Positions 39,352-58,094 of a stretch of 64,000 nt of DNA are shown piece after piece. Position 1 is the first letter of the stretch, and every line of letters starts with the position of its first letter. Position numbers and translations under genes: made by a program. The stretch lies in contig NZ_CP139698.1 in assembly GCF_034372165.1 (NCBI RefSeq), positions 558,001 to 622,000 on the forward strand, read 5' to 3'. The notes beneath the pieces were generated by a model. The model ran no database searches, was not told the origin of the DNA, and saw only the letters and a program-made list of their open reading frames with translations. Origin of the DNA: Christiangramia sp. OXR-203 (GTDB lineage Bacteria; Bacteroidota; Bacteroidia; Flavobacteriales; Flavobacteriaceae).

Positions 39352-42240
39352 TTAGAAAGAAATATTCACGTTTAAACCGATAGTTCTTGTATTTGGTGAT
39401 TGACCACCTTCAGTCCAACCGTAACCTGTAATCTGGCTGTCCTCTAATTCAGAAATATCAATATCGTCAATAGAGCTGTAGATTAACCAAAGATTACTTG
39501 CAAAGACACCAATATTCAGCTTCTTGATTGGCGTATTGTCGATCAAGCTACCTTCAACTTCATAGTCAATTCTAGCTTGTCTTAGTTTAACGTATGAAGC
39601 GTCATACAGCCATTCTTCATGTAGCGCAAACAATCTTCCGTAATAAGTTTGTGCTTCCACATAGTAAGAGGCAGGTTCGCCAGTTGTTTCATCTACTCCT
39701 TCTATAAGGATACCACCGGTTGAAGCATCTGCATCAGAAGCTGCAACTGCTGCACCTCCACCAGTAACTGCATCACGTAGCGGGTTGCCGGCTGCATTGT
39801 TACCTATAGTGCTTTCTCCTAAACCTGAGTAAGCATTGAACATTTTGGTAACGGAAAAGATCTTACCACCTTTCTGGAAGTCAAAATCCAATCCTAAAGA
39901 TAAATTTTTGTATTGCATAAATGATGTAGCTCCACCAGTCCAGTCTGGTAATACATTACCCAGGTATTGATTAGAGTCGTAACGAGGGTTACCGGTATCT
40001 GATAATAGAATGTTACCTGCATCATCTCTACGGTAAGCTCTACCATATATTGCACCCCACTCTTCACCAACTCTTTCCTGTAGTTGTATTCCTCTCCAAG
40101 TTGTTGATAATACATTTACGTCTGTTCCTGGTGCGATCGCATCCACTGTTCTTTCTAAAGTCGCAAAGTTCGCGTTGATGTCCCAAACAAAGTTGTCATT
40201 TCTAACTGGTACCACATTGAAAGCTAATTCCCAACCTTTATAAGTCTGTTCCCCTGAGTTTGTAGAAAAACTTGTGAAACCTGTAGATGGGTCTAAAGAT
40301 ACTCCAGCAGGAAGTTGATCATCTTGCTTGTTGAAATAAGTAACATCAAGTCCAAGGCGGTTATTTGCGAACCTCATTTCAGTACCAAATTCATATTCTC
40401 TTCGTACACCTCCAGTTAATAGTGGATTGTTCAGGCCGCTTTTAACAGATAGTTTCCCGAAAGATCCATATGGTGTTCCAATGTTATATGTTTCAGATAT
40501 CTGGAAAACGCCTGGAAATCTAGGTGCTTCAGCAATACTGGCTCTTAATTTTCCAAAACTAAGTATATCATTTTGAGGTAGTAATTTGCTAAAGATCAAA
40601 CTTAGAGAACCTCCGTATGTTTCAACTCTGTTGTCTTCTGAGTTCGCAGTAGACTGCCAGTCTAGTCTGGCAGATCCATCCAGGTATAATAGGTTTCTAA
40701 ATCCAATCGAGGCTTTAGAGAACACCGACTGTCTTCCTATTTCCTGATAGTAACTTGAAAGGTTAGGTCTATCTCTTGATGTATTTAAACTGTAGAACCC
40801 GTCTGCGGTAAGTCCACCGGCTGTTGAAGCTGAGATAGACTTTTCATTTCTATCGTAGATTTCAAAACCTGCGCTTGCGCTAATATCGAAGTCTTCAGTA
40901 AGGTCTTTTTGGTAATTCAGAATACCAAATAATTCATCTGTATTATTAGTTTCCTCGTATTCAGAGTAGAAAGGTTGAGAAAGACCACCAAATCCAGCTC
41001 TGTTTGAACTTTCATAGGTGTTTAATGTTTTTCTTACTTCAACACTGGCAGTGAAGTCTTCATTGAAGTTATAATTTAACCCTAATCTACCGTATAAAGC
41101 ATTTTTATTTTGAGGGTTTACATTTTCATTAGTAATGAAATATGGCATATCCCAATACAATGGAGATGTGTTTGTAGGGCTATTAAGGTTCCATGAAACA
41201 ACCTGTCCATTTCTTCTGTAATCCTTCAAGCGATCAATGTCAAGTTGCCTTTGCCACCATTGGTTAAAGTTTGACGCAATATTTCCGTATCCGTTAGATG
41301 GATAATTGGAAGTTCTTCTGTCCTGGTAATTTAAACTCGCAAAACCTTCCAGTTTGTCTGAAATATCCACACTCGCACTTAGCGATCCCTGAACAGTATT
41401 TCTTTCAGAATTAGGTATTACCCCAGTTCTGTCAATTTTAGCTAAACTAGCTCTTACTGAAAAACCTTCTCCACCTTTGGTAAAGGTTACATTGGTATTT
41501 GAAGTAATACCGGTTTCGAAGAAGTCGCGAACATTATCAGGGTTTGGTGAAAACGGTCTTAATTCTCCAAATTCGGGTGTGTTTGGAATCCAGGAATCCC
41601 AGTGTCTAACAAGTTGACCGTCCATCTTTGGTCCCCAACTTTCATCTGCATAATATTCAACCATAGACTGACCATCAAACGAACTCCAATCGGCTGGATG
41701 TATAGATGGATCAAAATTGAAAGTATTAAATTCTTGAGAGTAACCTCCTCCATATTCGTTTTGGTACTCTGGAATTTTATACACATTTTCAATGGCAGAA
41801 CTATGATTTACAGAGATGCTACTTTGTCCTTCTCCTGCGCTTTTGGTGGTAATGATAATTACACCGTTAATACCTTGAGGACCATATAATGCAGTTGCTG
41901 CGGCACCTTTCAACACCGACATATCAGCTATATCATCAGTAATAATATCTGAAGCATCCTGGACTTTAACGTTATCAACAATATACAGCACACCAGTATT
42001 ACCTCTTAATCGGATATTGGAGTTTCCAAATCCAGAACTAGGAGCTCCAGTAAACTGTACACCAGCAACCTTACCGGCAAGAGCATTGTTGATATTCGTT
42101 TCACGAGCTTTGATAAGGGATTCGCCTTCAACTGTTTGCTGTGCATATCCTAAGCTCTGCTTTTCTCGCTTAATACCGAGAGCGGTTACTACCACTTCCT
42201 GAAGCTGTGCGGAATCATTTTCCATCGTAATATCTATCAA
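39352..42240 (-). pseudogene. SusC/RagA family transporter lacking its N-terminus
   Basis: 962 codons stay open, but the frame begins at IDITMENDSAQLQEVVVTALG, which aligns with residue 91 onward of the intact SusC at 33683-36937 (IDVVMENDSAQLDEVVVTALG). The signal peptide and carboxypeptidase-regulatory domain, about 90 codons, are gone, and an in-frame TAA lies two codons upstream (42244-42246). The only starts are TTG at 42240 or the internal ATG of MEND. Without a signal peptide the product could not reach the outer membrane. Plug (VLKGAAATALYGPQG) and barrel (ending TIGLNVNISF) look normal, so loss is probably recent. A sequencing or assembly fault, or recombination with another locus, are alternatives. 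Confidence 0.75.
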
Positions 42241-42427
42241 ATTTTAACTAAATAAATGCAATAAAAACTTAAATCGGCAAACAATAATGCAGTGAATTGG
42301 CAATTTGAAGGTTGTACATAGAGTGTTTCTGAAGCTAAATTTGGTAGGGAACAAGTTTTCAGCTGTCTTCGAGCACTTTATATCTATTCTGTACGAGTAG
42401 TGGTTTCAAAATTAAAGTGGGCATATA
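42241..42427. other. Non-coding interval between shortened SusC and the ribosomal cluster
   Basis: This holds no supported gene. Minus-strand translation just upstream of the SusC fragment shows no remnant of the missing domain. A minus-strand TTATTGTTTGC (42279-42289) resembles the promoter of the intact SusC operon but has one base too many inside the box. Confidence 0.5.
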
Positions 42428-42458
42428 TTTGATTATTAGCTTTTTATTTCTACCTTTG
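42428..42458 (+). promoter_or_regulatory. Promoter of the ribosomal (str-S10) cluster
   Basis: TTTG (42428-42431), 19 bases, then TACCTTTG (42451-42458): a full match to the Bacteroidota housekeeping promoter. It gives a leader of about 50 bases before rpsL. Confidence 0.8.
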
Positions 42459-42513
42459 CAAACCCTAAAAATCGGGGGAATAAAATTTATTAATAATTAG
42501 TGTATAGGAAATT

Positions 42514-42888
42514 ATGCCAACAATTTCACAATTAGTACGAAAAGGAAGAGCCAAAATAACCAAGAAGAGTAAATCGGCTGCTTTGGATTCGTGCCCTCAA
42601 AGGAGAGGTGTTTGCACACGTGTATATACCACTACTCCTAAGAAACCAAACTCTGCTATGAGAAAAGTAGCAAGGGTGAGGTTGACAAACGGGAAAGAGG
42701 TTAACGCCTACATTCCTGGTGAAGGACACAATCTACAAGAGCACTCGATAGTATTGGTTAGAGGTGGAAGGGTAAAAGATTTACCAGGTGTTAGATATCA
42801 CATTGTTCGTGGTGCGCTAGATACTGCCGGTGTTGAAGGTAGAACTCAGCGAAGATCTAAGTACGGTGCAAAACGCCCTAAGAAGTAA
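42514..42888 (+). CDS. rpsL: 30S ribosomal protein uS12
   Basis: A 124-residue uS12, part of the decoding centre. The conserved [19 protein letters not shown] and [18 protein letters not shown] loops are intact, with the lysines that are altered in streptomycin-resistant strains still in their wild-type form. First gene of the cluster; rpsG and fusA follow in the classic str order. Confidence 0.98.
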
Positions 42889-42911
42889 TTAAAAACTTTT
42901 AATGTAAAGAA

Positions 42912-43388
42912 ATGAGAAAAAGACAGGCGAAAAAGAGACCGCTTTTACCAGATCCGAAATTTAACGATCAGCTAGTTACACGTTTCGTGAACATGATGAT
43001 GTGGGATGGTAAGAAGTCGGTAGCCTTTAAAATTTTCTATGATGCTATCGCGATTGTAGAAGAGAAAAAACAAGACGAAGAGAAATCTGGATTGGAAATT
43101 TGGAAAGATGCTCTTTCTAACGTGATGCCTCATGTTGAAGTGAGAAGTAGACGTGTAGGTGGTGCAACATTCCAGATACCAATGCAAATTCGTCCAGACC
43201 GTAAGGTGTCTACTGCTATGAAGTGGTTAATTAGTTTTGCACGTAAAAGAAATGAGAAGTCAATGGCTGGAAAGCTATCTGCTGAAATTCTTGCTGCTGC
43301 AAAAGAAGAAGGAGCTGCTGTTAAGAAAAGAGTAGATACTCATAAAATGGCTGAGGCTAACAAAGCATTCTCTCACTTTAGATTCTAA
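42912..43388 (+). CDS. rpsG: 30S ribosomal protein uS7
   Basis: A 158-residue uS7, which nucleates assembly of the 30S head by binding the 3' domain of 16S r[18 protein letters not shown] and the [16 protein letters not shown] motif are typical. It lies 23 bases after rpsL and 6 before fusA. Confidence 0.98.
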
Positions 43389-43394
43389 AACAAC

Positions 43395-45506
43395 ATGGCA
43401 CAAAGAGATTTAAAATTTACTAGAAATATTGGAATTGCGGCTCATATTGATGCAGGTAAAACTACAACTACAGAGCGTATCCTTTATTATACAGGTATAA
43501 GTCATAAAATCGGTGAGGTTCATGATGGTGCTGCCACTATGGACTGGATGGAGCAAGAGCAGGAGCGTGGTATTACTATTACCTCTGCAGCTACACACTG
43601 TAAGTGGATGTACCGCGATCAGGAATTTACTGTGAATATTATTGATACTCCAGGTCACGTTGACTTTACTGTAGAGGTTGAGCGTTCATTGCGTGTTCTT
43701 GATGGGGTTGTTGCATTGTTTTCTGCAGTAGACGGGGTTGAGCCTCAGTCTGAAACTGTTTGGAGACAGGCAGATAAATATAGAGTTCCACGTCTAGGTT
43801 TCGTTAATAAAATGGACCGTCAGGGTGCAGATTTTTTCAACGTATGTCGTCAGGTAAGAGAAATGCTTGGTGGTAACCCGGTGCCGCTTCAGGTGCCTAT
43901 CGGTGATGAAATCGACTTTAGAGGTGTGGTTGATCTTATTTCTAAGAAAGCAATTATTTGGAATGATGAGGATCATGGGATGACTTATGATACTATTGAT
44001 ATTCCTGAGGAGCTTGTAGATGATGTTAATAAGTACCGTGCAGAATTAGTGGAAGCGGTTGCAGAATATGATGAAGCATTGATGGAGAAATTCTTCGAGG
44101 ACGAAAGTTCTATTACTGAAGATGAGATCATCGCTGCATTAAGAGCTGCAACTATAGATATGAGCATCATTCCAATGATGTGTGGTTCTGCATTTAAAAA
44201 TAAAGGTGTTCAGGCGATGCTTGACGCTGTGATGCGTTACCTTCCTTCTCCAGTGGATGTAGAAGCAATTGAAGGTACTAACCCAGATACAGGTAAGGAA
44301 GAAAGTCGTAAGCCAAATGTGGATTCTCCATTTTCTGCGCTTGCATTTAAAATTGCTACCGATCCTTTCGTAGGTCGTTTAGCCTTTTTCCGTGCTTATT
44401 CCGGTACTCTTGAGGCTGGTTCTTACGTGTTGAACGTACGTTCAGGTAAAAAAGAGCGTATTTCAAGAATTTACCAGATGCACTCAAACAAGCAGGAGCC
44501 AATCGATAGTATTGAAGCTGGAGATATTGGGGCTGCTGTTGGATTTAAGGACATCAAAACTGGTGATACTCTTACAGATTTAAACCATCCAATTGTTCTT
44601 GAATCAATGTCTTTCCCTGCACCGGTAATTGGTATTGCAGTGGAGCCAAAGACTAAGGCTGATGTAGAAAAGATGGGGATGGCTCTTGGAAAACTTGCTG
44701 AAGAAGATCCAACTTTTACTGTAAAGACTGACGAAAATTCCGGACAAACGATTATCTCTGGTATGGGTGAGCTTCACCTTGAGATTATCATTGACCGAAT
44801 GAAGCGTGAGTTTAAAGTGGAAGTAAACGTTGGTGAGCCTCAGGTTGAGTACAAAGAAGCTGTACGTAGAGATGCTGATCAAAGAGAAGTTTATAAGAAA
44901 CAATCTGGTGGTCGTGGTAAATTTGCGGATATCGTATTTACAATGGGACCAGTAGACGAAGACTTCGAAGGTGAAGGACTTCAGTTCGTAGATTCAATTA
45001 AAGGTGGACGTATTCCTAAGGAATTTGTTCCTTCCGTAGAAAAAGGTTTTAAAGAGGCTATGAAGAATGGTCCTTTAGCTGGATTTACTATGGATACTTT
45101 AAAAGTTGAACTTAAGGATGGATCTTTCCACCCTGTGGATTCAGATCAACTTTCTTTCGAATTGGCTGCTAAAATGGGATACAAAGCTGCTGCAAAATCT
45201 GCAGGTGCCGTTATTCTTGAGCCAATCATGAAAGTAGAAGTTGTTACTCCGGAAGAGAATATGGGTGATATTGTTGGTGACCTTAACAGAAGAAGAGGTC
45301 AGGTAAACAACATGTCAGACAGATCTGGAGCGAAAGTAATCAAAGCTGAAGTGCCGCTTTCTGAAATGTTTGGATATGTTACTACATTAAGAACACTTTC
45401 ATCAGGTAGAGCAACTTCAACTATGGAATTCTCTCACTATGCTGAAACTCCTTCTAATATTTCTGAAGAAGTCATCAAAGCAGCTAAAGGAGCAGCAAAC
45501 GAATAA
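43395..45506 (+). CDS. fusA: Elongation factor G
   Basis: A 703-residue translocation GTPase. G1 is [11 protein letters not shown] (16-26), the switch region has [11 protein letters not shown]3 is DTPGHVDF and G4 is NKMD. Domains II-V follow in full length, including [10 protein letters not shown] in domain IV and the C-terminal [17 protein letters not shown]. It moves tRNAs and mRNA through the ribosome. Its place between rpsG and rpsJ, without tuf, is usual for the phylum. Confidence 0.98.
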
Positions 45507-45516
45507 TCTTAAGGAA

Positions 45517-45822
45517 ATGAGTCAAAAAATCAGAATAAAACTAAAATCTTACGATCATAACCTGGTAGACAAGTCTGCTGAAAAGATTGTAAAAACCGTA
45601 AAGACTACGGGAGCTGTTGTAACCGGACCAATTCCGTTACCAACAAACAAGAAAATCTTTACTGTTCTACGTTCACCTCACGTGAACAAGAAATCCAGAG
45701 AGCAGTTTCAATTAAGCTCTTACAAGAGGTTACTTGATATCTATAGCTCTTCTTCAAAAACGATTGATGCGTTGATGAAGCTTGAATTGCCAAGTGGTGT
45801 TGAAGTTGAGATCAAAGTGTGA
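45517..45822 (+). CDS. rpsJ: 30S ribosomal protein uS10
   Basis: A 101-residue uS10 of the 30S head, also the NusE transcription factor. [21 protein letters not shown] starts the fold, and [27 protein letters not shown] is the long loop. The frame reaches back to 45439 inside fusA; ATG at 45517, ten bases after the fusA stop, gives the normal length. A structured 145-base interval follows instead of the usual tight spacing. Confidence 0.98.
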
Positions 45823-45967
45823 TAAAACAGTTCCGCGCACTACGGTGCGCGGTTAACATGTCCTAAGCGTTTCGCGAAGGAAAAACGGTGAAAGATACAA
45901 TTCAGGGCTGAATGTGTTTTTCAGCCCTTAGTTTTTTAAATAAGTAAACAATTAATAATTAATAAAT
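45823..45967 (+). promoter_or_regulatory. Structured rpsJ-rplC intergenic RNA with terminator-like stem (putative attenuator)
   Basis: Three stems can be read. P1: CCGCGCAC (45833-45840) and GTGCGCGG (45845-45852) closed by a TACG tetraloop on a C-G pair, the very stable UNCG type. P2: TCCT (45861-45864)/AGGA (45878-45881) and GCG/CGC (45867-45869/45873-45875) with an AA/GA internal loop and a TTT loop. P3: AGGGCTGA (45904-45911) and TCAGCCCT (45921-45928), followed by TAGTTTTTT. P3 looks like an intrinsic terminator inside the operon. Attenuation of rplC-onward genes, for instance by one of their own proteins such as uL4, is an inference. No -7 promoter box was found. Confidence 0.65.
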
Positions 45968-46579
45968 ATGTCTGGGTTAATAGGAAAAAAGATCGGTATG
46001 ACCAGCATCTTCGACGAGAATGGGAAGAACATCCCATGTACCGTAATCGAAGCTGGACCATGCTTGGTTACCCAAGTCAGAACCAAAGAGGTTGACGGGT
46101 ATGAAGCACTTCAACTTGGTTTCGATGACAAAAAGACTGTTAATAAAGCTGCTGAAGGGCATGCTAAAAAAGCAGGAACCGTTGCAAAACGTAAAGTCGT
46201 TGAATTCCAGGGTTATAATGAAGATTACAAATTAGGTGACTCTGTTACCGTGGAACATTTTAGAGAAGGTGAATTTGTGGATATCGCAGGTACATCTAAA
46301 GGTAAAGGTTTCCAGGGTGTTGTAAAGAGACACGGTTTTGGAGGAGTTGGACAGGCCACGCACGGTCAGCACAACAGATTGAGAGCTCCTGGTTCTATTG
46401 GTGCAGCTTCTTATCCTGCGAGAGTATTCAAGGGAATGAAGATGGCCGGAAGAATGGGTGGCGAGAGAGTTAAAGTTGAAAACCTGAAAGTTTTGAAGGT
46501 TGTGGCAGATAAGAACCTTTTAGTAGTAAAAGGATGTGTGCCGGGATCTAAAAACTCATACGTAATCATTAGTAAGTAA
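45968..46579 (+). CDS. rplC: 50S ribosomal protein uL3
   Basis: A 203-residue uL3, an early-assembly protein near the peptidyl-transferase centre. [18 protein letters not shown] and the loop [15 protein letters not shown], with [17 protein letters not shown]-like continuation, are typical. It is the first gene after the structured leader; its stop overlaps the rplD start (TAATG). Confidence 0.97.
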
Positions 46580-47205
46580 TGGAAGTAGCAGTTTTAGATA
46601 TTAAAGGAAAAGAAACAGGCAGAAAAGCACAGCTTTCTGATTCTGTTTTCGCTATAGAGCCTAATGAGCACGCTGTTTATCTAGATGTTAAACAGTATCT
46701 GGCTAATCAACGTCAGGGTACTCATAAAGCTAAAGAAAGAGCAGAGATCGCAGGATCTACGCGTAAGATCAAGAAACAAAAGGGTACTGGTACAGCGAGA
46801 GCTGGTAGTATCAAGTCTCCTATCTTCAAAGGTGGTGGACGTGTTTTTGGTCCAAGACCTAGAAACTACGGTTTCAAATTAAACAAGAACCTGAAACGTC
46901 TTGCAAGAAAGTCGGCCCTATCTATTAAGGCAAACGACAAGGCTATCATGGTGATTGAAGATTTTTCATTCGATACTCCAAAAACCAAGAACTTTATCGA
47001 AGTTCTTCAGGCTCTGGGGATTGACAGTAAAAAATCGCTTATTGTGTTGGGTGACTCAAATAAAAATGTATATTTGTCGTCGCGCAATTTGAAATCCTCA
47101 GAAGTTATAAATAGCTCAGAATTAAGTACTTACAAAATACTTAATGCTAAGAGTATCGTCTTCGTAGAAGGATCTTTAGAAGGAATTGAGTCGAAATTAA
47201 GTTAA
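46579..47205 (+). CDS. rplD: 50S ribosomal protein uL4
   Basis: A 208-residue uL4, lining the exit tunnel. The extended loop carries [17 protein letters not shown] and [13 protein letters not shown], as in all bacterial uL4. In E. coli uL4 represses its own operon by attenuation; the leader before rplC here would be the natural place for a similar control, though this is not shown. Confidence 0.97.
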
Positions 47206-47214
47206 TAAACCGTT

Positions 47215-47505
47215 ATGAGCATCTTGATTAAACCTGTTATTACAGAAAAAGCTACTACAGATAGTGAGATGAACAATCGCTTCACTTTTGTAGTAAGTAA
47301 CAAGGCAAATAAGATTCAGATCAAAGACGCAGTTGAATCTGCTTATGGCGTGTCTGTTACTAAAGTTCGAACTATGAATGTCCGCCCGGATCGTAAGACT
47401 AAATATACTAAGTCTGGTATGATCACTGGTAAAACTAATGCTTTCAAAAAAGCAGTAGTACAGGTGGCGGAAGGGGAAACTATTGATTTATACAGTAATC
47501 TTTAA
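47215..47505 (+). CDS. rplW: 50S ribosomal protein uL23
   Basis: A 96-residue uL23 at the exit-tunnel rim, docking site for SRP and trigger factor. ILIKPVITEKATTDSE and TFVVSNKANKIQIKDAVESAYGV are diagnostic. It starts nine bases after rplD. Confidence 0.96.
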   Translation: MSILIKPVITEKATTDSEMNNRFTFVVSNKANKIQIKDAVESAYGVSVTKVRTMNVRPDRKTKYTKSGMITGKTNAFKKAVVQVAEGETIDLYSNL

Positions 47506-47514
47506 GATTAAAGA

Positions 47515-48351
47515 ATGTCAGTTAGAAAATTAAAACCAATTACACCTGGTCAGCGTTTTAGAGTAGTTAATGGGTATGACGCCATTACTACTGATAAGCC
47601 GGAGAAAAGCCTATTGGCGCCGATAAAAAAATCAGGTGGTAGAAACAGTCAGGGAAAAATGACCATGCGCTATAAAGGTGGTGGTCATAAAAGAAGGTAT
47701 CGTGTAATCGACTTTAAGCGTGACAAGCAGGGAATTCCTGCTACAGTAGCTTCTATCGAGTACGATCCAAACAGAACGGCCTTTATCGCATTATTGAATT
47801 ATCAGGATGGAGAGAAAAGGTATATTATTGCTCAGAATGGGCTTCAGCTTGGACAGAATATAGTTTCTGCTAATGAAGCTGCTTCTCCTGAGATCGGGAA
47901 TGCAATGCCTTTGGCAAACATTCCACTTGGTACGGTTATTTCCTGTATCGAGTTGAGACCAGGGCAGGGAGCTGTGATGGCGCGTAGTGCCGGTGCTTTT
48001 GCTCAGTTATTGGCAAGAGAAGGTAAATATGCAACTATCAAGTTGCCCTCTGGGGAGATTAGACGTGTTCTTTCACTTTGTATAGCTACAATCGGAGCTG
48101 TATCCAACAGTGATCATCAGTTAATGATTGGTGGTAAAGCTGGTAGAAGCAGATGGTTGGGTATACGTCCAAGAACAAGACCGGTAGCGATGAACCCTGT
48201 CGATCACCCAATGGGTGGTGGTGAAGGTAGAGCTTCAGGTGGTCACCCACGTTCTAGAAAAGGTCTTCCTGCTAAAGGATTCAAGACCCGCTCAAGAACA
48301 AAAGCGAGTAATAAATATATTGTAGAACGTAGAAAGACTAGAAAGAAATAA
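47515..48351 (+). CDS. rplB: 50S ribosomal protein uL2
   Basis: A 278-residue uL2, needed for subunit joining and peptidyl transfer. [22 protein letters not shown] and the conserved [20 protein letters not shown] loop, with its essential His, are present. The length is normal. Confidence 0.98.
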
Positions 48352-48354
48352 GAT

Positions 48355-48633
48355 ATGGCACGTTCATTAAAAAAAGGACCTTTCGTTCATTACAAACTGG
48401 AACAAAAAGTGGCTCAGAATGTTGAGTCAGGAAAGAAAGCCGTGATCAAAACTTGGTCTAGAGCTTCTATGATTACTCCAGATTTTGTAGGACAAACTAT
48501 AGCGGTACACAACGGGAAACAATTTGTTCCTGTTTATGTAACTGAAAATATGGTGGGTCATAAACTAGGAGAATTTTCACCAACACGTTCTTTCAGAGGA
48601 CATGCAGGTGCGAAAAATAAAGGTAGAAAATAA
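48355..48633 (+). CDS. rpsS: 30S ribosomal protein uS19
   Basis: A 92-residue uS19 of the 30S head. [14 protein letters not shown], the [14 protein letters not shown] segment and C-terminal [14 protein letters not shown] are typical. It starts three bases after rplB. Confidence 0.97.
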
Positions 48634-48641
48634 TTGAAGCT

Positions 48642-49049
48642 ATGGGAGTTCGTAAAAGAGAAAGAGCAGAGCAAATAAAAGAAGCCAAGAAACAGGTAGC
48701 TTTTGCAAAGTTAAATAACTGCCCTACTTCGCCTAGAAAAATGCGTCTTATGGCGGATTTGGTTAGAGGAGAGAAAGTAGAAAAAGCGCTTCATATTTTA
48801 AAGTTCAGTAAAAAAGAAGCATCAAATCGTTTAGAGAAACTTTTAGTTTCAGCTATCGCCAACTGGCAGGCTAAGAACGAGGAAGCTAACCTTGAAGAAG
48901 CTGAGCTATTTGTGAAAGAGATTCGTGTAGACGGAGGAAGTATGTTGAAAAGACTTCGTCCTGCTCCACAGGGTCGTGCACACCGAATTAGAAAGAGATC
49001 CAATCATGTTACATTAGTGCTTGGAGCAAACAATAATACACAAAGCTAA
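48642..49049 (+). CDS. rplV: 50S ribosomal protein uL22
   Basis: A 135-residue uL22 with the hairpin that reaches into the exit tunnel ([21 protein letters not shown]). The N-terminus ([20 protein letters not shown]) is about 20 residues longer than in E. coli, as often in this phylum. Confidence 0.96.
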
Positions 49050-49057
49050 GAGATAGT

Positions 49058-49777
49058 ATGGGACAGAAAACAAATCCAATCGGGAATCGCCTTGGTATCA
49101 TTAGAGGTTGGGAATCCAACTGGTACGGAGGTAATGACTACGGCGATAAACTTGCCGAAGACGATAAGATTAGAAAGTACATCCATGCTCGTCTTTCTAA
49201 AGCGAGTGTATCGCGTGTAATCATCGAGCGCACGCTTAAGCTTGTAACCGTTACTATCACTACTGCCAGACCTGGTATTATTATCGGGAAAGGTGGACAG
49301 GAGGTAGACAAGCTTAAGGAAGAGCTTAAAAAGATTACCGACAAGGAGGTTCAAATTAACATCTTTGAAATCAAAAGGCCAGAACTTGATGCGCATTTAG
49401 TTGCTTCAAGTGTTGCTAGACAAATTGAGAATAGAATCTCTTACCGTCGTGCAATCAAAATGGCTATTGCGGCTGCAATGAGAATGAATGCTGAAGGAAT
49501 CAAGATTGAGATTTCCGGACGTTTAAATGGTGCTGAAATGGCACGTTCAGAATCATACAAGGATGGAAGAATACCTTTGTCTACTTTTAGGGCTGATATT
49601 GATTATGCTTTGATCGAAGCTCATACTACCTATGGTAGATTGGGGATTAAAGTTTGGATCATGAAGGGTGAGGTATACGGAAAAAGAGAGCTTTCGCCTC
49701 TAGTTGGTCTTGCAAAGAACCAAGGAAAGAAATCCGGTGCCGGACGAGGTGGGAACAAATCACGTCGTAGAAAGTAA
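49058..49777 (+). CDS. rpsC: 30S ribosomal protein uS3
   Basis: A 239-residue uS3 at the mRNA entry. [18 protein letters not shown] opens it; the KH domain holds [27 protein letters not shown] and the basic C-terminal tail ([17 protein letters not shown]) complete it. Confidence 0.97.
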
Positions 49778-49797
49778 TTTTTTAAAGGAAAGAAAAA

Positions 49798-50217
49798 ATG
49801 TTACAACCTAAAAGAACAAAATACCGTAAGCAACAAAAAGGCCGTATGAAAGGGCTTGCTCAAAGAGGGCATAGACTTTCAAACGGAACCTTCGGAATCA
49901 AATCAATGGATTCCAGCTTTGTTACTGCACGTCAAATAGAAGCTGCGCGTATCGCCGCTACCCGATATATGAAAAGAGAAGGTTCTATCTGGATCAAAAT
50001 TTTCCCAGATAAGCCTATCACAAAGAAACCTCTTGAAGTACGTATGGGTAAAGGTAAAGGTGCCGTGGAATATTGGGCAGCAGTGGTTAAACCAGGAAGA
50101 ATAATGTTTGAAATTGGTGGAGTACCAATGGCAACTGCTAAAGAGGCTTTACGTCTTGCAGCACAAAAACTTCCGGTAAGAACAAAATTTGTTGTAGCTA
50201 GAGATTATCAAGAATAA
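49798..50217 (+). CDS. rplP: 50S ribosomal protein uL16
   Basis: A 139-residue uL16, near the A-site t[23 protein letters not shown] and [19 protein letters not shown] are typical. The segment [12 protein letters not shown] includes the Arg that is hydroxylated by YcfD in E. coli. Confidence 0.97.
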
Positions 50218-50227
50218 TATTGGAATT

Positions 50228-50419
50228 ATGAAACAATCAGAAGTAAAAGAATTGTCTGTTGCAGAATTGCAAGAAGAGCTTGGTAAGTCTCGAAAAGCTT
50301 ATTCAGATTTAAAAATGGCTCATGCTGTTTCGCCTTTGGAGAATCCGATACAGTTGAGAACTGAAAGGAGAAAAGTGGCGAGATTAGCTACAGAGTTAAC
50401 TAAAAGAGAACAACAATAA
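50228..50419 (+). CDS. rpmC: 50S ribosomal protein uL29
   Basis: A 63-residue two-helix uL29 near the exit tunnel. EVKELSVAELQEELGKSRKA and NPIQLRTERRKVARLATEL match the family. Confidence 0.95.
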   Translation: MKQSEVKELSVAELQEELGKSRKAYSDLKMAHAVSPLENPIQLRTERRKVARLATELTKREQQ

Positions 50420-50437
50420 TTGTTATTCTGCTGAAAG

Positions 50438-50695
50438 ATGGAAAAAAGAAACTTAAGAAAAGAGCGTGTAGGGGTTGTTACAAGTAACAAAATGCAGAAA
50501 TCCATAGTGGTTGCTGAAGTGAAAAAAGTAAAACACCCTATGTATGGAAAATTCGTTTTGAAAACGAAAAAGTACGTAGCACACGACGAAAATAACGACT
50601 GCAACGAAGGTGATACTGTAAAGATCATGGAAACAAGACCTTTAAGTAAATCCAAGACTTGGAGATTAGTAGAAATAATTGAAAGAGCGAAGTAA
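50438..50695 (+). CDS. rpsQ: 30S ribosomal protein uS17
   Basis: An 85-residue uS17 with OB fold, an early binder of 16S r[22 protein letters not shown] and [20 protein letters not shown] are diagnostic. Confidence 0.97.
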
Positions 50696-50698
50696 ATC

Positions 50699-51067
50699 AT
50701 GGTACAACAAGAGTCCAGACTAAAAGTAGCAGATAACACCGGAGCTAAGGAAGTCCTTACTATCCGTGTGTTAGGAGGTACAAAGAAAAGATACGCATCT
50801 GTTGGAGACAAGATAGTTGTCAGTGTAAAAGAATCTACACCTAACGGAAATATCAAGAAGGGTGCAGTTTCAACAGCAGTTGTTGTTCGTACCAAGAAAG
50901 AAGTACGCAGACCAGATGGATCTTATATCCGTTTTGATGATAATGCATGTGTACTTTTAGGTCCTCAGGGTGAAATGCGCGGTACTCGTGTATTTGGTCC
51001 TGTAGCACGTGAACTTCGTGATAAGCAATTCATGAAAATTGTATCATTGGCACCTGAAGTGCTTTAA
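50699..51067 (+). CDS. rplN: 50S ribosomal protein uL14
   Basis: A 122-residue uL14 at the subunit interface. [19 protein letters not shown] and the [15 protein letters not shown] loop are typical. It starts three bases after rpsQ. Confidence 0.97.
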
Positions 51068-51079
51068 TACATTAAGAAA

Positions 51080-51391
51080 ATGACAAAGCTTAAAATAAAA
51101 TCAGGAGATACCGTACGTGTAATCGCTGGTGACCATAAGGGTCAGGAAGGGAAAGTGCAGAAGGTACTTATCGAGAAGAATAAAGCTATTGTGGAAGGGG
51201 TTAATATGATCTCTAAGCATGAGAAGCCTAGTGCTTCTAATCCACAAGGTGGAATTAAGGAGAAAGAAGCTCCAATCCATATTTCTAATCTATCACTTAT
51301 CGACAAGAACGGTGATACAACGAGAGTTGGTTATAGAGAAGAAGATGGAAAGAAAGTGAGATTCTCTAAAAAATCTAATGAAGTAATATAG
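51080..51391 (+). CDS. rplX: 50S ribosomal protein uL24
   Basis: A 103-residue uL24, an assembly initiator with a KOW motif ([20 protein letters not shown]). Normal length and position between rplN and rplE. Confidence 0.97.
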
Positions 51392-51393
51392 TT

Positions 51394-51945
51394 ATGGCAT
51401 ACGTACCAAGACTTAGACAGGAATATAACGAGAGAGTTAAGAATGCTCTTAAGGATGAATTCAGTTACTCCAATATCATGGAGGTGCCAAAACTGGAGAA
51501 GATAGTAATTAGCCGTGGAGTTGGTGGAGCAGTGGCAGATAAGAAACTTATCGACCATGCAATCGACGAACTTTCCGCAATTAGTGGACAAAAGGCTGTT
51601 GCTACGATCTCTAAGAAGGATGTTGCATCATTCAAATTACGTAAAGGAATGCCAATTGGCGCTAAAGTAACTTTACGTGGGTATAGAATGTATGAATTCC
51701 TGGATAGATTGATTACTAGTGCATTGCCACGTGTTCGTGATTTTAATGGTATCAAATCTAATGGGTTTGATGGTAGAGGAAATTACAACCTTGGAATCAC
51801 TGAGCAAATCATCTTTCCTGAGATCGATATCGATGCTGTGAATAGAATCGCTGGAATGGATATCACTTTTGTTACTTCTGCGGAAACCGATAAGGAAGCA
51901 AAAGCATTGTTAACCGAACTAGGATTACCTTTTAAAAAGAACTAA
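51394..51945 (+). CDS. rplE: 50S ribosomal protein uL5
   Basis: A 183-residue uL5, which binds 5S r[24 protein letters not shown] and [20 protein letters not shown] are conserved elements. Its stop is two bases before rpsN. Confidence 0.97.
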
Positions 51946-51947
51946 TT

Positions 51948-52217
51948 ATGGCTAAAGAATCAATGAAAGCCCGTGAGGTGAAAAGACAGAAATTGGTAAA
52001 GAAGTATGCTGAGAAACGCGCTGCCCTTAAAGAAGCAGGTGATTACGAAGGTTTACAGAAACTACCAAAGAATTCTTCTCCGGTTCGTTTGCACAACAGA
52101 TGTAAATTAACTGGAAGACCAAAAGGGTATATGAGACAATTTGGTCTTTCTCGAGTAATGTTCAGAGAGATGGCTAATCAAGGTCTTATACCAGGTGTTA
52201 AAAAGGCAAGCTGGTAA
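51948..52217 (+). CDS. rpsN: 30S ribosomal protein uS14, zinc-free form
   Basis: An 89-residue uS14 of the long, C-minus type. [22 protein letters not shown] has one Cys where the short zinc-binding form (61 residues) has CxxC pairs, so it does not bind zinc. The Trp end (KKASW) is conserved. Confidence 0.97.
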
Positions 52218-52273
52218 TATTATAAACTGGATGAAGGTTCAATAAGGAAAACCACATCCGCAAATAAATTTAA
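52218..52273 (+). promoter_or_regulatory. Hairpin leader between rpsN and rpsH
   Basis: GGATG (52229-52233) pairs with CATCC (52255-52259) and GGTT (52236-52239) with AACC (52250-52253), leaving a small asymmetric A-rich internal loop. It sits 14 bases before rpsH in an otherwise tight operon. A site for uS8 feedback is possible, since uS8 represses the spc operon in E. coli from a stem with an internal loop near rplE; unproven here. Confidence 0.4.
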
Positions 52274-52672
52274 ATGAATACAGATCCTATTGCAGATTAC
52301 TTAACAAGAATCAGGAATGCAAATGCTGCAAACCACAGAGTTGTGGAAATTCCTGCTTCCAATGTTAAAAAAGAGATCACTAAGATATTATTCGATCAGG
52401 GATATATTCTAAGTTACAAATTCGAAGACACTACCGCTCAGGGAGTGATCAAGATCGCTCTTAAGTATGATAAGATTACTAAAGAGCCAGTAATTAAGAA
52501 GATTCAACGAATAAGTAAACCTGGTTTACGTAAGTATGCCGGATCAACAGAGATTCCAAGAATCCTGAATGGTCTTGGTATCGCGATTGTTTCAACTTCT
52601 CACGGAGTTATGACTGGAAAACAGGCTAAAGCCGACAAAGTTGGTGGTGAAGTACTGTGCTACGTTTACTAA
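52274..52672 (+). CDS. rpsH: 30S ribosomal protein uS8
   Basis: A 132-residue uS8, binder of the central domain of 16S rRNA. DPIADYLTRIRNANAANH and the C-terminal GLGIAIVSTSHGVMTGKQAK with Ser-rich RNA loop are typical. Confidence 0.97.
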   Translation: MNTDPIADYLTRIRNANAANHRVVEIPASNVKKEITKILFDQGYILSYKFEDTTAQGVIKIALKYDKITKEPVIKKIQRISKPGLRKYAGSTEIPRILNGLGIAIVSTSHGVMTGKQAKADKVGGEVLCYVY

Positions 52673-52691
52673 TACTTAAAAGACTAAAGAG

Positions 52692-53234
52692 ATGTCAAGA
52701 ATAGGTAAAAATCCCATTACAATTCCAGAAGGTGTGACAGTAGAGCACAAAGATGGTCTTGTTACGGTAAAAGGAAAATTAGGAGAGCTTAAGCAGCAGG
52801 TACAGGATATCGATGTTAAAATCGAAGATAATGTAATTACTTTTGAGCGTACTTCTGATAAAAGTGATCAGAAAGCAAAACACGGTCTTTATCGTGCTTT
52901 GGTAAATAATATGATTGAAGGTGTATCTAATGGATTCACTAAATCACTTGAACTTGTAGGTGTTGGTTATAGAGCTAGCAACCAGGGTAACAAGCTTGAT
53001 TTGGCTGTTGGTTATTCTCACAATATTGTACTAGATTTGGCTCCCGAAGTTAAAGTGGAGACGATCTCAGAAAAAGGTAAGAACCCTGTCGTTAAACTTA
53101 CTTCACATGACAAGCAACTTGTAGGACAGGTAGCTGCGAAGATCCGATCAATGAGAAAACCTGAACCTTACAAAGGAAAAGGTATCAAATTTGTTGGTGA
53201 GCAATTGAGAAGAAAAGCAGGTAAATCAGCATAA
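52692..53234 (+). CDS. rplF: 50S ribosomal protein uL6
   Basis: A 180-residue uL6 with two similar halves, near the factor-binding site. [17 protein letters not shown] and C-terminal [20 protein letters not shown] are diagnostic. Confidence 0.97.
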
Positions 53235-53245
53235 TAAAGATAGTT

Positions 53246-53602
53246 ATGGCAGTGTCAAAACAAGATAGAAGAAATAAAATTAGAAAACGTATCCGTAGGG
53301 ATATCGTTGGAACAACAAGCCGTCCTAGATTATCTGTATTCAGAAGCAATAAAGAGATTTATGCTCAGATTATCGATGACGTTGAAGGTAAAACTTTAGC
53401 TTCAGCATCTTCAAGAGATAAAGATATCGTGTCTGCTTCTGCAGATAGAAAAGAGCAGGCTCAAATGGTTGGTAAAGCCATTGCTGAGAAAGCGAAAAGT
53501 GCTGGTATCGATACAATCTCCTTCGATAGAGGTGGATATCTATATCACGGTAGAGTTAAATCATTAGCAGAAGGTGCTCGCGAAGGAGGACTTAAATTCT
53601 AG
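53246..53602 (+). CDS. rplR: 50S ribosomal protein uL18
   Basis: A 118-residue uL18, which with uL5 binds 5S r[23 protein letters not shown] and [24 protein letters not shown] are conserved. It is followed by rpsE after five bases. Confidence 0.97.
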
Positions 53603-53607
53603 AAAAT

Positions 53608-54132
53608 ATGTATCAAGATTATAAAAACGTAGAACATGTAAAACCAGGAGGTCTTGAATTAAAGGACCGTTTGGTTGGAGTACAACGTGTTACTAAGGTT
53701 ACAAAAGGTGGTAGAGCCTTTGGATTCTCTGCTATTGTTGTAGTAGGAGATGAAAATGGTGTAGTTGGTCAGGGACTTGGTAAATCCAAAGAAGTGGCAG
53801 ATGCTATCTCTAAGGCTGTAGAAGACGCTAAGAAAAATCTGGTACGCATCCCTTTACATAAAGGAACATTACCTCACGAACAAAAAGGTAAGTATGGTGG
53901 AGCAAGAGTTATGCTTCTTCCTGCTGCAGCTGGTACTGGTATCATTGCCGGTGGAGCGATTCGTGCGGTACTTGAGTCTGTAGGTGTGCATGATGTACTT
54001 TCTAAGAATCAGGGATCTTCGAACCCACACAACGTAGTCAAAGCTACTTTTGATGCTTTACTTCAATTGAGAAGTGCTGAAACTGTTGCAAAACAGAGAG
54101 GTGTTTCTTTGGAAAAAGTATTTAAAGGTTAA
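53608..54132 (+). CDS. rpsE: 30S ribosomal protein uS5
   Basis: A 174-residue uS5, involved in accuracy and mRNA unwinding. [21 protein letters not shown] and [22 protein letters not shown] are typical. Normal length. Confidence 0.97.
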
Positions 54133-54146
54133 AATCAAGGAATAAG

Positions 54147-54329
54147 ATGGGAAAGATAAAAGTCACTAAAAGGAAAAGTGCTATTAATCGCACGAAAAAT
54201 CAAAAACTCGTGCTTGAGTCTCTTGGACTTAAGAAGATCGGGCAGACGGTTGAACATGACGATACGCCAAACATCCTTGGTATGGTAAATAAAGTTAAAC
54301 ACTTAGTTTCTGTTGAAGAAACAAAATAA
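54147..54329 (+). CDS. rpmD: 50S ribosomal protein uL30
   Basis: A 60-residue uL30. [19 protein letters not shown] and [20 protein letters not shown] match the family; it lies between rpsE and rplO as usual. Confidence 0.96.
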
Positions 54330-54338
54330 TAATCTCTC

Positions 54339-54791
54339 ATGGATTTAAGTAACTTAAAACCTGCAGAAGGTTCAGTTAGAAAGAATAGCAAGCGTATTGG
54401 TCGCGGTGAAGGATCTGGTAAAGGTGGAACCTCTACCAGAGGTCACAAAGGAGCCAAGTCTCGTTCTGGTTATTCAAAAAAGATCGGATTTGAAGGAGGG
54501 CAAATGCCACTTCAAAGACGTGTGCCTAAGTTTGGATTCACCAACAGAAATCGTAAGGTTTACCAGGGAATTAACCTGGATACTCTTCAATCTCTTGTTG
54601 ATGAAGGAAGAATTAAGGATACAGTTGATATGGACGTGCTTGCAGAAAACGGTCTTGCCGGAAGAAACGAGCTTGTTAAGATATTAGGTAGAGGTGAATT
54701 AAAGGCAAAGTTGAAAATATCTGTTCATAAATTTACGGCCTCAGCGAAAGAAGCTATCGAAGCTGCCGGAGGTGAAGTTGTTACTTTATAA
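54339..54791 (+). CDS. rplO: 50S ribosomal protein uL15
   Basis: A 150-residue uL15. The basic N-terminal tail (GRGEGSGKGGTSTRGHKGAK) and FEGGQMPLQRRVPKFGF are diagnostic. It precedes secY by eleven bases. Confidence 0.97.
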   Translation: MDLSNLKPAEGSVRKNSKRIGRGEGSGKGGTSTRGHKGAKSRSGYSKKIGFEGGQMPLQRRVPKFGFTNRNRKVYQGINLDTLQSLVDEGRIKDTVDMDVLAENGLAGRNELVKILGRGELKAKLKISVHKFTASAKEAIEAAGGEVVTL

Positions 54792-54802
54792 TAGATAATC
54801 AA

Positions 54803-56140
54803 ATGAAATTCATCAATACGATTCAAAATATTTGGAAAATCGAGGAGCTAAAAAATAGAATTTTAGTAACCCTCGGTTTGCTTTTGGTATATCGTTTCGG
54901 GGCGCAGGTAGTGCTTCCCGGAATTGATGCCGCTCAACTTTCAAGTCTGGCTAACCAGACAGATAGTGGACTATTAGGTCTACTTAATGCATTTACAGGT
55001 GGAGCGTTCTCGAATGCTTCAGTATTTGCTTTAGGTATTATGCCTTATATATCAGCCTCTATTGTAGTGCAATTAATGGGGATTGCTATTCCTTACTTGC
55101 AAAAGCTTCAGAAAGAAGGTGAAAGTGGACGTAAAAAGATCAATCAAATCACCCGATGGTTAACCATTGCTATCACATTAGTTCAGGGACCTGGTTATAT
55201 TTATAACCTGTTTGCTACCTTGCCTGGAGAAGCATTCTTGCTTGGCGATAACTTAACTTTTGTTATCTCCTCAGTAATAATACTTACCACAGGTACAATT
55301 TTCGCGATGTGGTTAGGTGAGAAGATCACAGATAAAGGGATTGGTAATGGTATTTCATTGTTAATTATGGTGGGTATTATTGCTACTCTACCTCAGGCAT
55401 TCATTCAGGAATTCGCTTCCAGAGTATTTGAATCCAATGGTGGTATGGTAATGATCCTTATTGAACTGGTGATCTGGTTTGCTATCATCATGGCGTCTGT
55501 AATGTTGGTAATGGCAGTACGTCAAATACCTGTACAGTATGCAAGAAGATCTGCTTCTGGCGGATATGAAAAGAATGTGTTTGGTTCAAGACAGTATATC
55601 CCTTTGAAATTAAATGCTTCTGGGGTAATGCCAATCATTTTCGCTCAGGCGATTATGTTCATTCCTGTAGCTCTTGCTGGTCTATCAGACTCAGATACTG
55701 CTCAGGGTGTGACGGCAGCATTTCAAAACATCTTTGGTTTCTGGTATAACCTTGTATTCGCTTTATTGATTATTGTCTTTACATATTTCTATACAGCGAT
55801 CACGGTACCAACAAATAAGATGGCAGATGATCTTAAACGAAGTGGTGGTTTTATTCCAGGGATCCGTCCAGGAACTGAAACTGCTGAATACTTAGATAGG
55901 ATCATGTCTCAAATTACGCTTCCTGGATCTATATTCCTGGCTCTTATTGCGGTGTTCCCTGCAATAGTTTTCTCTTTGTTGGGTGTACAGCAAAGTTGGG
56001 CGTTGTTCTTCGGAGGTACTTCACTTCTAATTATGGTTGGAGTTGCGATAGATACTATGCAGCAGGTAAATTCTTATCTACTGAATAGACACTATGACGG
56101 ATTAATGAAAACAGGTAAAAACAGAAAAGCAGTAGCTTAA
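54803..56140 (+). CDS. secY: Protein translocase subunit SecY
   Basis: A 445-residue channel protein with ten membrane segments, the core of the Sec translocon. [26 protein letters not shown] forms the plug and second segment; the cytoplasmic loops have [16 protein letters not shown] and [16 protein letters not shown]. Standard length. It lies in the spc operon without adk after it, because adk is fused to hpt elsewhere in the window. Confidence 0.98.
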
Positions 56141-56142
56141 TT

Positions 56143-56358
56143 ATGGCAAAGCAGGCAGCGATTGAACAAGACGGAACCATTATTGAAGCATTGTCTAATG
56201 CAATGTTTCGTGTGGAATTAGAGAATGGTCACGTAGTGACTGCACATATCTCTGGAAAGATGCGTATGCATTACATTAAATTACTTCCTGGAGATAAGGT
56301 GAAACTGGAAATGAGTCCTTATGATTTAACTAAGGCTCGAATAACTTACAGATACTAA
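56143..56358 (+). CDS. infA: Translation initiation factor IF-1
   Basis: A 71-residue OB-fold protein that occupies the A site during initiation. [29 protein letters not shown] and [15 protein letters not shown] are typical. Two bases separate it from secY. Confidence 0.97.
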
Positions 56359-56390
56359 AAAGTAATTTTCAGCCTTTTATAAATTTTTTA

Positions 56391-56398
56391 TACTTTTG
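56391..56398 (+). promoter_or_regulatory. Internal promoter of the rpmJ-rpsM-rpoA part of the cluster
   Basis: TACTTTTG, a perfect TAnnTTTG box followed by CA as in strong promoters of the phylum. The upstream region has TTTTCA at 56366-56371, near the -33 position. It would start a transcript about 70 bases before rpmJ. Confidence 0.6.
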
Positions 56399-56473
56399 CA
56401 CTCTGAAAAATTTATGACGGCTAAAATTTCACTAAAAGGATAATTCCTTGTAAGTGAATTAAAAAGAGATAAG
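56399..56473 (+). promoter_or_regulatory. Leader of rpmJ with hairpin and small open frame
   Basis: TTCACT (56428-56433)/AGTGAA (56453-56458) and AAGGA (56436-56440)/TCCTT (56445-56449) form one interrupted stem with a TAAT loop. A nine-codon frame (56414-56443) runs into its 5' arm. The set-up resembles a translated leader that could control rpmJ and the genes after it. Confidence 0.45.
56414..56443 (+). CDS. Putative leader peptide upstream of rpmJ
   Basis: ATG to TAA encodes MTAKISLKG. The stop lies in the loop of the leader hairpin, so a ribosome on it would open the stem. Nothing else supports translation; chance occurrence is quite possible. Confidence 0.25.
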   Translation: MTAKISLKG

Positions 56474-56590
56474 ATGAAAGTTAGAGCATCAATAAAAAAG
56501 AGAAGTGCCGACTGCAAGATTGTTCGCAGGAAAGGGCGCCTTTACGTTATTAACAAAAAGAATCCTAGATTTAAACAAAGACAAGGCTAA
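56474..56590 (+). CDS. rpmJ: 50S ribosomal protein bL36, zinc-free form
   Basis: A 38-residue protein, [17 protein letters not shown] at the start and NPRFKQRQG at the end, the classic bL36 frame. Zinc ligands at positions 11, 27 and 33 are Ser, Asn and Phe; only Cys14 remains, so this is the zinc-free type. It ends two bases before rpsM. Confidence 0.96.
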
Positions 56591-56592
56591 TT

Positions 56593-56967
56593 ATGGCAAG
56601 AATTGCAGGGGTAGATATACCTAAACAAAAGCGAGGAGTTATAGCGTTGACCTATATCTTCGGAATTGGCAGAAGCAGGGCTCAAGAGATACTTGCACAA
56701 GCTAAAGTAGACCAGAGTAAGAAAGTTTCTGAATGGGACGATGATGAAATCGGTAAAATTCGTGAAGCCGTTGGTCAGTTTACAATCGAAGGTGAGTTGC
56801 GTACTGAAGTTCAGATGAGCATCAAACGTCTTATGGACATTGGATGTTACAGAGGAATTCGTCACAGAGCTGGTTTACCTTTAAGAGGGCAGCGTACTAA
56901 GAATAACTCGAGAACCAGAAAAGGTAGAAGAAAAACAGTTGCTAACAAGAAAAAAGCAACTAAATAG
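56593..56967 (+). CDS. rpsM: 30S ribosomal protein uS13
   Basis: A 124-residue uS13 of the 30S head, touching the P-site t[28 protein letters not shown] and C-terminal [20 protein letters not shown] are typical. Confidence 0.97.
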
Positions 56968-56975
56968 TAATTAGT

Positions 56976-57380
56976 ATGGCAAAGAAGACAAATCAAAAGG
57001 CCGGTAAGACTCAGAAGAAACGTAAAGTAATCGTTGAATCCAACGGTGAAGCTCACGTTACTGCTTCTTTTAATAACATCATTATTTCCCTTACCAATAA
57101 AAAGGGTGATGTTGTAGCGTGGTCATCTGCTGGTAAGATGGGCTTTAGAGGATCCAAGAAAAATACACCTTATGCTGCGCAGTTAGCTGCTGAAGATGCT
57201 TCGAAAGTAGCACATGAAGCTGGGATGCGTAAAGTTAAGGTTTATGTGAAAGGTCCTGGAAATGGTAGAGAGTCTGCTATTAGAGCAGTGCACAATAGTG
57301 GTATCGAGGTTACTGAAATTATCGACATCACTCCACTTCCACATAATGGATGTCGTCCTCCTAAGAGACGTAGAGTTTAA
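56976..57380 (+). CDS. rpsK: 30S ribosomal protein uS11
   Basis: A 134-residue uS11 at the platform. [21 protein letters not shown] and C-terminal [15 protein letters not shown] are conserved; the Asn-Gly of PHNG is the site of iso-aspartate in E. coli. Confidence 0.97.
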
Positions 57381-57463
57381 AAAAATTTAATCATAGAGAA
57401 GGATTAAGATTATCGAAGGACTTATGCCTTAATTCATAATCCCTTTTCAAAACAACTTAAGTA
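57381..57463 (+). promoter_or_regulatory. Structured leader of rpsD
   Basis: An 83-base interval in a tightly packed operon. GGATTA (57401-57406) pairs with TAATCC (57437-57442), and AAGG (57416-57419) with CCTT (57427-57430). Ribosomal leader motifs upstream of S4 genes have been described in Flavobacteria and relatives; this is likely the same kind of element, but the match to a published model was not tested. Confidence 0.5.
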
Positions 57464-58069
57464 ATGGCAAGATATACTGGTCCAAAAACTAAAATAGCCC
57501 GTAAGTTCGGTGAAGCTATTTTTGGTGACGACAAATCTTTCGAAAAAAGAAATTATCCTCCAGGACAGCACGGTAATAACCGTCGTAGAGGAAAGAAATC
57601 GGAATATGCAATCCAGTTGATGGAAAAGCAAAAAGCTAAGTATACTTATGGTATCCTTGAGCGTCAATTCCGTAATATGTTTGAAAAAGCAACCAGAGCA
57701 CAGGGTATTACCGGTGAGGTTCTTCTTCAACTTTGTGAGTCTCGTTTAGATAATGTAGTGTACCGTATGGGTGTAGCGCCTTCAAGAAGAGCTGCTCGTC
57801 AATTAGTAGGTCACCGTCATATCACTGTAAACGGAGAACTTGTAAATATTCCTTCTTACCACCTAAAGGCTGGTGATGTTGTTGGGGTAAGAGAAAAATC
57901 TAAATCACTTGGTGTGATTCAGGAGTCATTATCTAATAGCAGTAATGTTTACGAATGGCTTTCATGGAATTCTGAAAAGAAAGAAGGTACTTTCGTTTCT
58001 GTTCCAGGAAGAGTTCAAATTCCTGAAAACATCAACGAGCAATTTATAGTCGAATTATATTCGAAATAA
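57464..58069 (+). CDS. rpsD: 30S ribosomal protein uS4
   Basis: A 201-residue uS4, a primary 16S rRNA binder that in other bacteria represses its own operon. [21 protein letters not shown] and the S4 RNA-binding motif ([32 protein letters not shown]) are clear. It lacks the N-terminal zinc cysteines of some homologues. Confidence 0.97.
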
Positions 58070-58094
58070 TAATTCATCATACAGAAGTCGAAAT

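Follow-up and report, generated by a model that had tools for sequence, protein, structure and literature searches.

The 145-base gap between rpsJ and rplC in Christiangramia sp. OXR-203 holds a conserved RNA element that very probably works as a cis-acting transcription attenuator of the S10-spc block of Flavobacteriaceae. Comparison among genomes establishes its conservation, its location and two overlapping, covarying hairpins, and we put the probability of the whole explanation, i.e., an attenuator under feedback from a ribosomal protein, at about 0.7. A first-pass annotation of this DNA had proposed a new cis-regulatory RNA between rpsJ and rplC; the proposal is supported, as the covariation analysis across Flavobacteriaceae found frequent compensatory changes in relatives and all the strong and pattern matches examined lie at this same site.

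Genomic Context

In the window (the whole stretch of 64,000 nucleotides analysed), the gap 45823-45967 separates the end of rpsJ (45822) from the start of rplC (45968); from rplC onward runs a block of about twenty ribosomal genes, S10-spc. The names rpsJ, rplC, rplD, rplW and fusA were checked against Pfam, while the other ribosomal genes were named from their order and translations. Flavobacterial promoters follow the consensus TTG-N17-25-TAnnTTTG, made of a -33 part and a -7 box. The genes and promoters needed here are the following:

42312-42343, plus strand: second full-consensus promoter match, upstream of rpsL
42429-42459, plus strand: likely operon promoter by this consensus, TTG-N19-TACCTTTGC, upstream of rpsL
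45517-45822, plus strand: rpsJ (uS10), Pfam PF00338, the last gene ahead of the element
45968-46579, plus strand: rplC (uL3), Pfam PF00297, the first gene past the putative attenuator
46579-47205, plus strand: rplD (uL4), Pfam PF00573, candidate ligand by analogy

A plus-strand scan of 42200-58600 for the full consensus gave two matches outside genes, both before rpsL, as well as matches inside genes at 47042-47076 (two overlapping) and 53008-53039; there was none in the gap 45823-45967. This anatomy fits the earlier suggestion that uS10 and EF-G could be made apart from the rest.

Two other signals were seen further down. The S4-Flavobacteria leader RF03141 matches with 46.3 bits at 57408-57441; the gene that follows it, at 57464, is rpsD by position. 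One or more described leader RNAs thus accompany the element between rpsJ and rplC in this cluster. A promoter-like box, TACTTTTGC, stands at 56391-56399 between an ORF ending at 56140 (secY by position) and an ORF at 56593, which suggests a second transcription unit.

Parts of the RNA

All three stems that the first-pass annotation had claimed for the gap are present in 45823-45967, which folds at -42.1 kcal/mol vs. -26.2 (sd 3.66) for shuffles (z -4.3), with none of the 200 shuffles as good. Comparison of relatives delimits a conserved core of about 85 bases (45855-45939) across Flavobacteriaceae. It starts with AUGUCC, a stem-loop with variable interior and GGAAAAACGG; an A-rich and then a U-rich strand flank a hairpin region, and a terminator comes last. 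This order, common to most family members read, was impossible to reveal from one sequence alone. The parts, with the evidence for each, are:

45833-45852, plus strand: P0 hairpin with a UACG tetraloop; position kept among relatives, sequence not
45855-45890, plus strand: putative receptor, comprising AUGUCC, P1 (45862-45880) and GGAAAAACGG (45879-45888); alignments A1 and A4
45890-45899, plus strand: antiterminator 5' strand, GAAAGATACA, forming 10 bp with 45913-45922; covariation
45901-45912, plus strand: inner antiterminator hairpin, UUCA-GGGC-UGAA, of which 45904-45912 doubles as the terminator 5' strand
45913-45922, plus strand: antiterminator 3' strand, UGUGUUUUUC, pairing with 45890-45899; covariation
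45904-45928, plus strand: intrinsic terminator stem, AGGGCUGAA/UUCAGCCCU; covariation and hairpin scan
45932-45937, plus strand: terminator U-tract; sequence

The GC-rich stem with a UNCG tetraloop, c(UACG)g, turned out to lie outside the conserved core, which begins just 3' of this hairpin. Among 172 distinct P0 segments (up to 45 bases upstream of the core, 40 shuffles per segment), the mean fold z was -2.79, with z below -1 in 152; P0 may serve to insulate the element, or to protect the message upstream of it. The second stem, described with an AA/GA internal loop, was found as P1, within a putative receptor that is small and has a nearly invariant tail; the receptor model has a single match in the genome, at 43.2 bits. 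The terminator-like stem with its T run is followed by TAG and six T. The helix joining 45890-45899 to 45913-45922, which had not been named before, overlaps and competes with this terminator.

Covariation of Two Competing Hairpins

Two alignments were used: A1, built by MAFFT from 83 sequences (identical ones, most close members of the organism's own genus and loci without the strict pattern left out), and A3, fitted to a model with 87 sequences after removal of six opposite-strand matches, which leans towards structure. RNAalifold gave nine pairs in the terminator, six of them with double changes, and a scan found the terminator hairpin followed by at least four T within 7 bases in 82 of the 83 sequences (L104 gave another hairpin). 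For P1 and the terminator in the MAFFT alignment, 94.5% of cells are paired, against at most 56.4% when the partner is slid; the corresponding figures for the antiterminator and P1 in the structure-leaning alignment are 93.9% and at most 56.8%, with double changes in 11 of 15 pairs.

Swapping strands between species, a procedure that ignores kinship, weakened both hairpins: native against swapped values were -14.88 and -10.79 for the terminator (z -14.7), and -4.00 and -2.77 for the antiterminator (z -9.6). P1 alone gave a weak signal (z -3.0). One base belongs to both hairpins and tracks both its partners, as A/U/U in 60 and G/C/C in 7 of the 83 sequences; among the remaining 16, nine have A/C/U, which breaks the inner antiterminator pair. 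Double changes counted on trees (85 of 87 taxa) came to 60 on the A3 structure and 39 in the terminator on A1, numbers that are indicative only, as A3 is structure-fitted and register shifts can mimic double changes.

An attenuator should combine a conserved intrinsic terminator ahead of a gene with a conserved alternative structure that excludes it. The first is found here, and the second is borne out by the antiterminator swap, the shared base and the structure-fitted counts; the secondary structure is thus backed by covariation, as in ribosomal-protein leaders. One has to consider that the best fold of the whole tail, i.e., the terminator, beats the best fold available before the terminator 3' strand, i.e., the antiterminator, in 87 of 87 sequences (means -15.7 vs. 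-5.8). Read-through therefore needs either kinetics or a stabilising factor.

Spread among Genomes

We located rplC in 54 of 59 genomes from a search for relatives and in 248 of 249 from a family sample, both including the organism's own genome; in part of these genomes the sequence ahead of rplC was read (loci L002-L117). The covariance model of the element, R1, has one clear match in its own genome (84 bits, the next being 21.5). It matches in 219 of the 249 family genomes, 3 of them weakly (E above 0.005), and has no match in the other 30. Twelve of the 20 family genomes listed among these 30 measure 2.5 Mb or less, and a few of the absences may be assembly gaps; loss of the element may go with small genomes.

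In a sample of the class, R1 matched in 29 of 396 genomes. The nine matches of at least 56 bits all fall in Flavobacteriaceae and all between rpsJ and rplC; they represent 9 of the 17 Flavobacteriaceae genomes of that sample, the other eight all belonging to genus g132, where R1 matches in none of the eight. Twenty-two weak class matches (up to 42.2 bits) were set aside as ordinary terminators because rpsJ and rplC are absent from their stretches: neither gene is near in the 21 that could be checked, and one has no locus.

A 31-base pattern, run on a named genome collection, hit at least 118 stretches, and those listed all lie beside rpsJ and/or rplC. Of these, 109 are flanked by rpsJ and rplC in that order, 6 show rpsJ alone and 3 rplC alone, the single-gene cases lying at stretch edges; genera include Polaribacter, Maribacter, Winogradskyella, Salegentibacter, Christiangramia and Zobellia. 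The element thus sits upstream of ribosomal-protein genes, where a ribosomal-protein leader belongs, in these stretches (at least 118) and in 9 of 9 strong class matches. The distance from motif to rplC is 654 bases in L232 and 73-166 in the other 108 two-gene stretches listed. In some long gaps, Polaribacter included (L161, L195, L205, L228, L241), a common second stretch, AATAGACGCGCTGG...CGTCTAAAATTTTAAC, was seen by eye just 5' of rplC; it is possibly a translational element.

Of a set of 20 fetched stretches, 18 come from other families of the order; 15 of these had a readable gap and 3 an unresolved rplC; the strict motif is absent from the 15 readable gaps. One of these, L065, has no adjacent rpsJ. 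Loose matches in L061 and L065, with up to 5 errors allowed, fail the strict pattern.

Proposed Mechanism and Alternatives

RNA polymerase would arrive after starting at the rpsL promoter; in some relatives, the start could also be at a promoter immediately after rpsJ. The receptor (AUGUCC, stem, GGAAAAACGG) would be transcribed first; the A-rich strand would then pair with the U-rich strand as the antiterminator, and the intrinsic terminator would be made last, reusing part of the antiterminator RNA. A ribosomal protein of the operon in excess (uL4 as first choice, then uL3 or another) could bind the receptor together with the antiterminator strand next to it; the terminator would then form and expression from rplC onward would go down, with rpsL, rpsG, fusA and rpsJ staying on. 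A ribosomal protein is a probable ligand, uL4 in particular a tentative one, named by analogy for two reasons. The S10 operon of E. coli is under the control of uL4, as stated in a passage of PMC10931766, and one ligand often serves the leaders of different lineages, according to part of PMC7247131.

A more far-reaching and, in our view, unlikely reading is that of a family-wide, undescribed RNA class serving as a valve in a fused str-S10-spc operon, with a ligand that may be new for ribosomal leaders or may be free uS10/NusE, a ribosomal protein made just upstream that would license transcription downstream. If this were true, the proteins from uL3 onward would be set apart from uS12, uS7, EF-G and uS10.

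A related and still less probable reading takes the receptor as a binding site for a metabolite, an alarmone or a transcription factor, forming an antitermination signal. The product of rpsJ, just upstream, is uS10, which is NusE, and together with NusB it would be an example of such a factor; the small receptor with its nearly invariant tail and the apparent need of read-through for stabilisation would suit this reading as well. A shared Nus signal would, however, be expected in the rRNA operon, and the pattern and model searches of the organism's rRNA operon found no likeness to the receptor above chance; the receptor model has a single match in the genome. The known leaders of ribosomal operons, as presented in part of PMC7247131, bind products of their operon. 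The same searches leave little room for mimicry of rRNA: GGAAAAACGG has two matches with 2 mismatches in the organism's 23S, where about 1.2 are estimated by chance, the receptor model scores no higher than 8.8 bits (E 0.57) across the rRNA operon stretch, and a 12-base likeness to 23S (L118:1729-1740, 7.1 bits, E 1.5) was discounted, as several genera have a different sequence in that part of the leader.

Could the element simply be a constitutive terminator of the str transcript, in which case rplC would be read from a separate promoter further down and the conserved upstream part would act in mRNA processing or stability? The terminator stem is indeed strong, and genus g132 lacks the element: of its eight genomes, six were read by eye, and the rpsJ-rplC gaps of L280, L281, L282 and L284 show a terminator followed by a TAnnTTTG-like box. 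We also examined 189 gaps with the core, which pool two partly overlapping sets with related genomes. The TAnnTTTG box alone, without the -33 part, stands downstream of the core, i.e., before rplC, in 23 of them and upstream in 13, so that some start sites may lie behind the element. In none of the 189, however, does the full consensus stand between core and rplC; ten have it upstream of the core, many of these being alike, and the window's own gap has none. Such a terminator would, moreover, leave the conserved receptor and the covarying antiterminator unexplained, and we regard it as very unlikely. In several of the ten gaps with an upstream promoter, a terminator comes first after rpsJ (by eye). 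Taken with the g132 gaps, these layouts of promoters and terminators make the rpsJ-rplC gap look like a transcription-unit boundary in the family, and the element seems to be located where the rplC message begins or is gated.

The least probable alternative is attenuation coupled to translation, in which a ribosome leaving rpsJ, or one on a short ORF starting at the conserved AUG, would set the fold. All but one of the 189 gaps have the AUG of AUGUCC (188), and 79 read AUG-UCC-stop; the core starts about 28-39 bases 3' of the rpsJ stop in many genomes. Against such coupling, the ORF from this AUG varies from 2 to 49 codons, the distance from rpsJ to the element ranges from 12 to 494 bases among the 109 two-gene stretches listed, and several genomes have a terminator and a promoter between the two (by eye). 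A leader peptide can be dismissed on the same ORF lengths, as no short ORF is conserved.

What is known about the regulation of the largest ribosomal gene cluster comes mainly from E. coli. An attenuator of the kind favoured here would be a regulator of this cluster in Flavobacteriaceae, unusual in its position after rpsJ. Its compact receptor would allow the ligand to be tested directly, and relatives lacking the element would serve as a natural comparison.

Novelty and Comparison with Known Systems

None of the 4227 families of Rfam 15 reaches its gathering score in the gap (four sub-threshold hits, the best with E 0.026, on the minus strand), and seven relatives gave no Rfam 15 match up to E 1. 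New leaders of Flavobacteria are listed for S4, S15 and S16 in Table 1 of PMC7247131 and for L19 in its text, in the parts seen, and a passage of PMC11109978 reports an rpsJ motif in Peptostreptococcaceae. The passages on rplC, S10 and Flavobacteria in PMC11109978, PMC8040213 and PMC2864571 hold no description of the element, and none of the titles listed by our literature search describes it. On this coverage, the element is likely, though not proven to be, undescribed.

The GUCCY-hairpin motif recalls the GUCC of the stem by its name and by one of its phyla, Bacteroidetes, in the part of PMC2864571 seen; it differs in being reported from Proteobacteria as well as Bacteroidetes, in having no Rfam number and in its doubtful standing as an RNA and as a cis element. 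The two may overlap, being set apart by the table description only. The L4 leader of Archaeoglobi likewise precedes rplC, rplD, rplW and rplB, according to a passage of PMC7247131, where it is an archaeal candidate deemed borderline by its authors; the likeness seen is one of location. Closer in taxon is the S4-Flavobacteria leader RF03141, a ribosomal-protein leader of the same gene cluster (PMC7247131, in part), which is nevertheless separate: it has a 33-position model and lies about 11 kb downstream, before rpsD.

In E. coli, the S10 leader precedes rpsJ, whereas the flavobacterial element lies after it and so lacks the E. coli-type location. Both control, or would control, the S10 gene block and have an intrinsic terminator in a structured leader, transcription of the uL4-controlled E. 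coli leader being believed to stop at that terminator (passages of PMC10931766). The flavobacterial element differs further in its evident antiterminator and in having no Rfam match.

The L10(L12)4 attenuator of rplJL in B. subtilis has the same series of receptor, antiterminator and intrinsic terminator before a ribosomal-protein operon, as described in part of PMC10931766. No anti-antiterminator pairing was noticed in the flavobacterial element. The B. subtilis operon and receptor are different, the latter having a kink-turn according to the same passages. In the flavobacterial P1, the G-A loop is replaced by Watson-Crick pairs in several genera, so that a kink-turn is not a conserved feature of the element.
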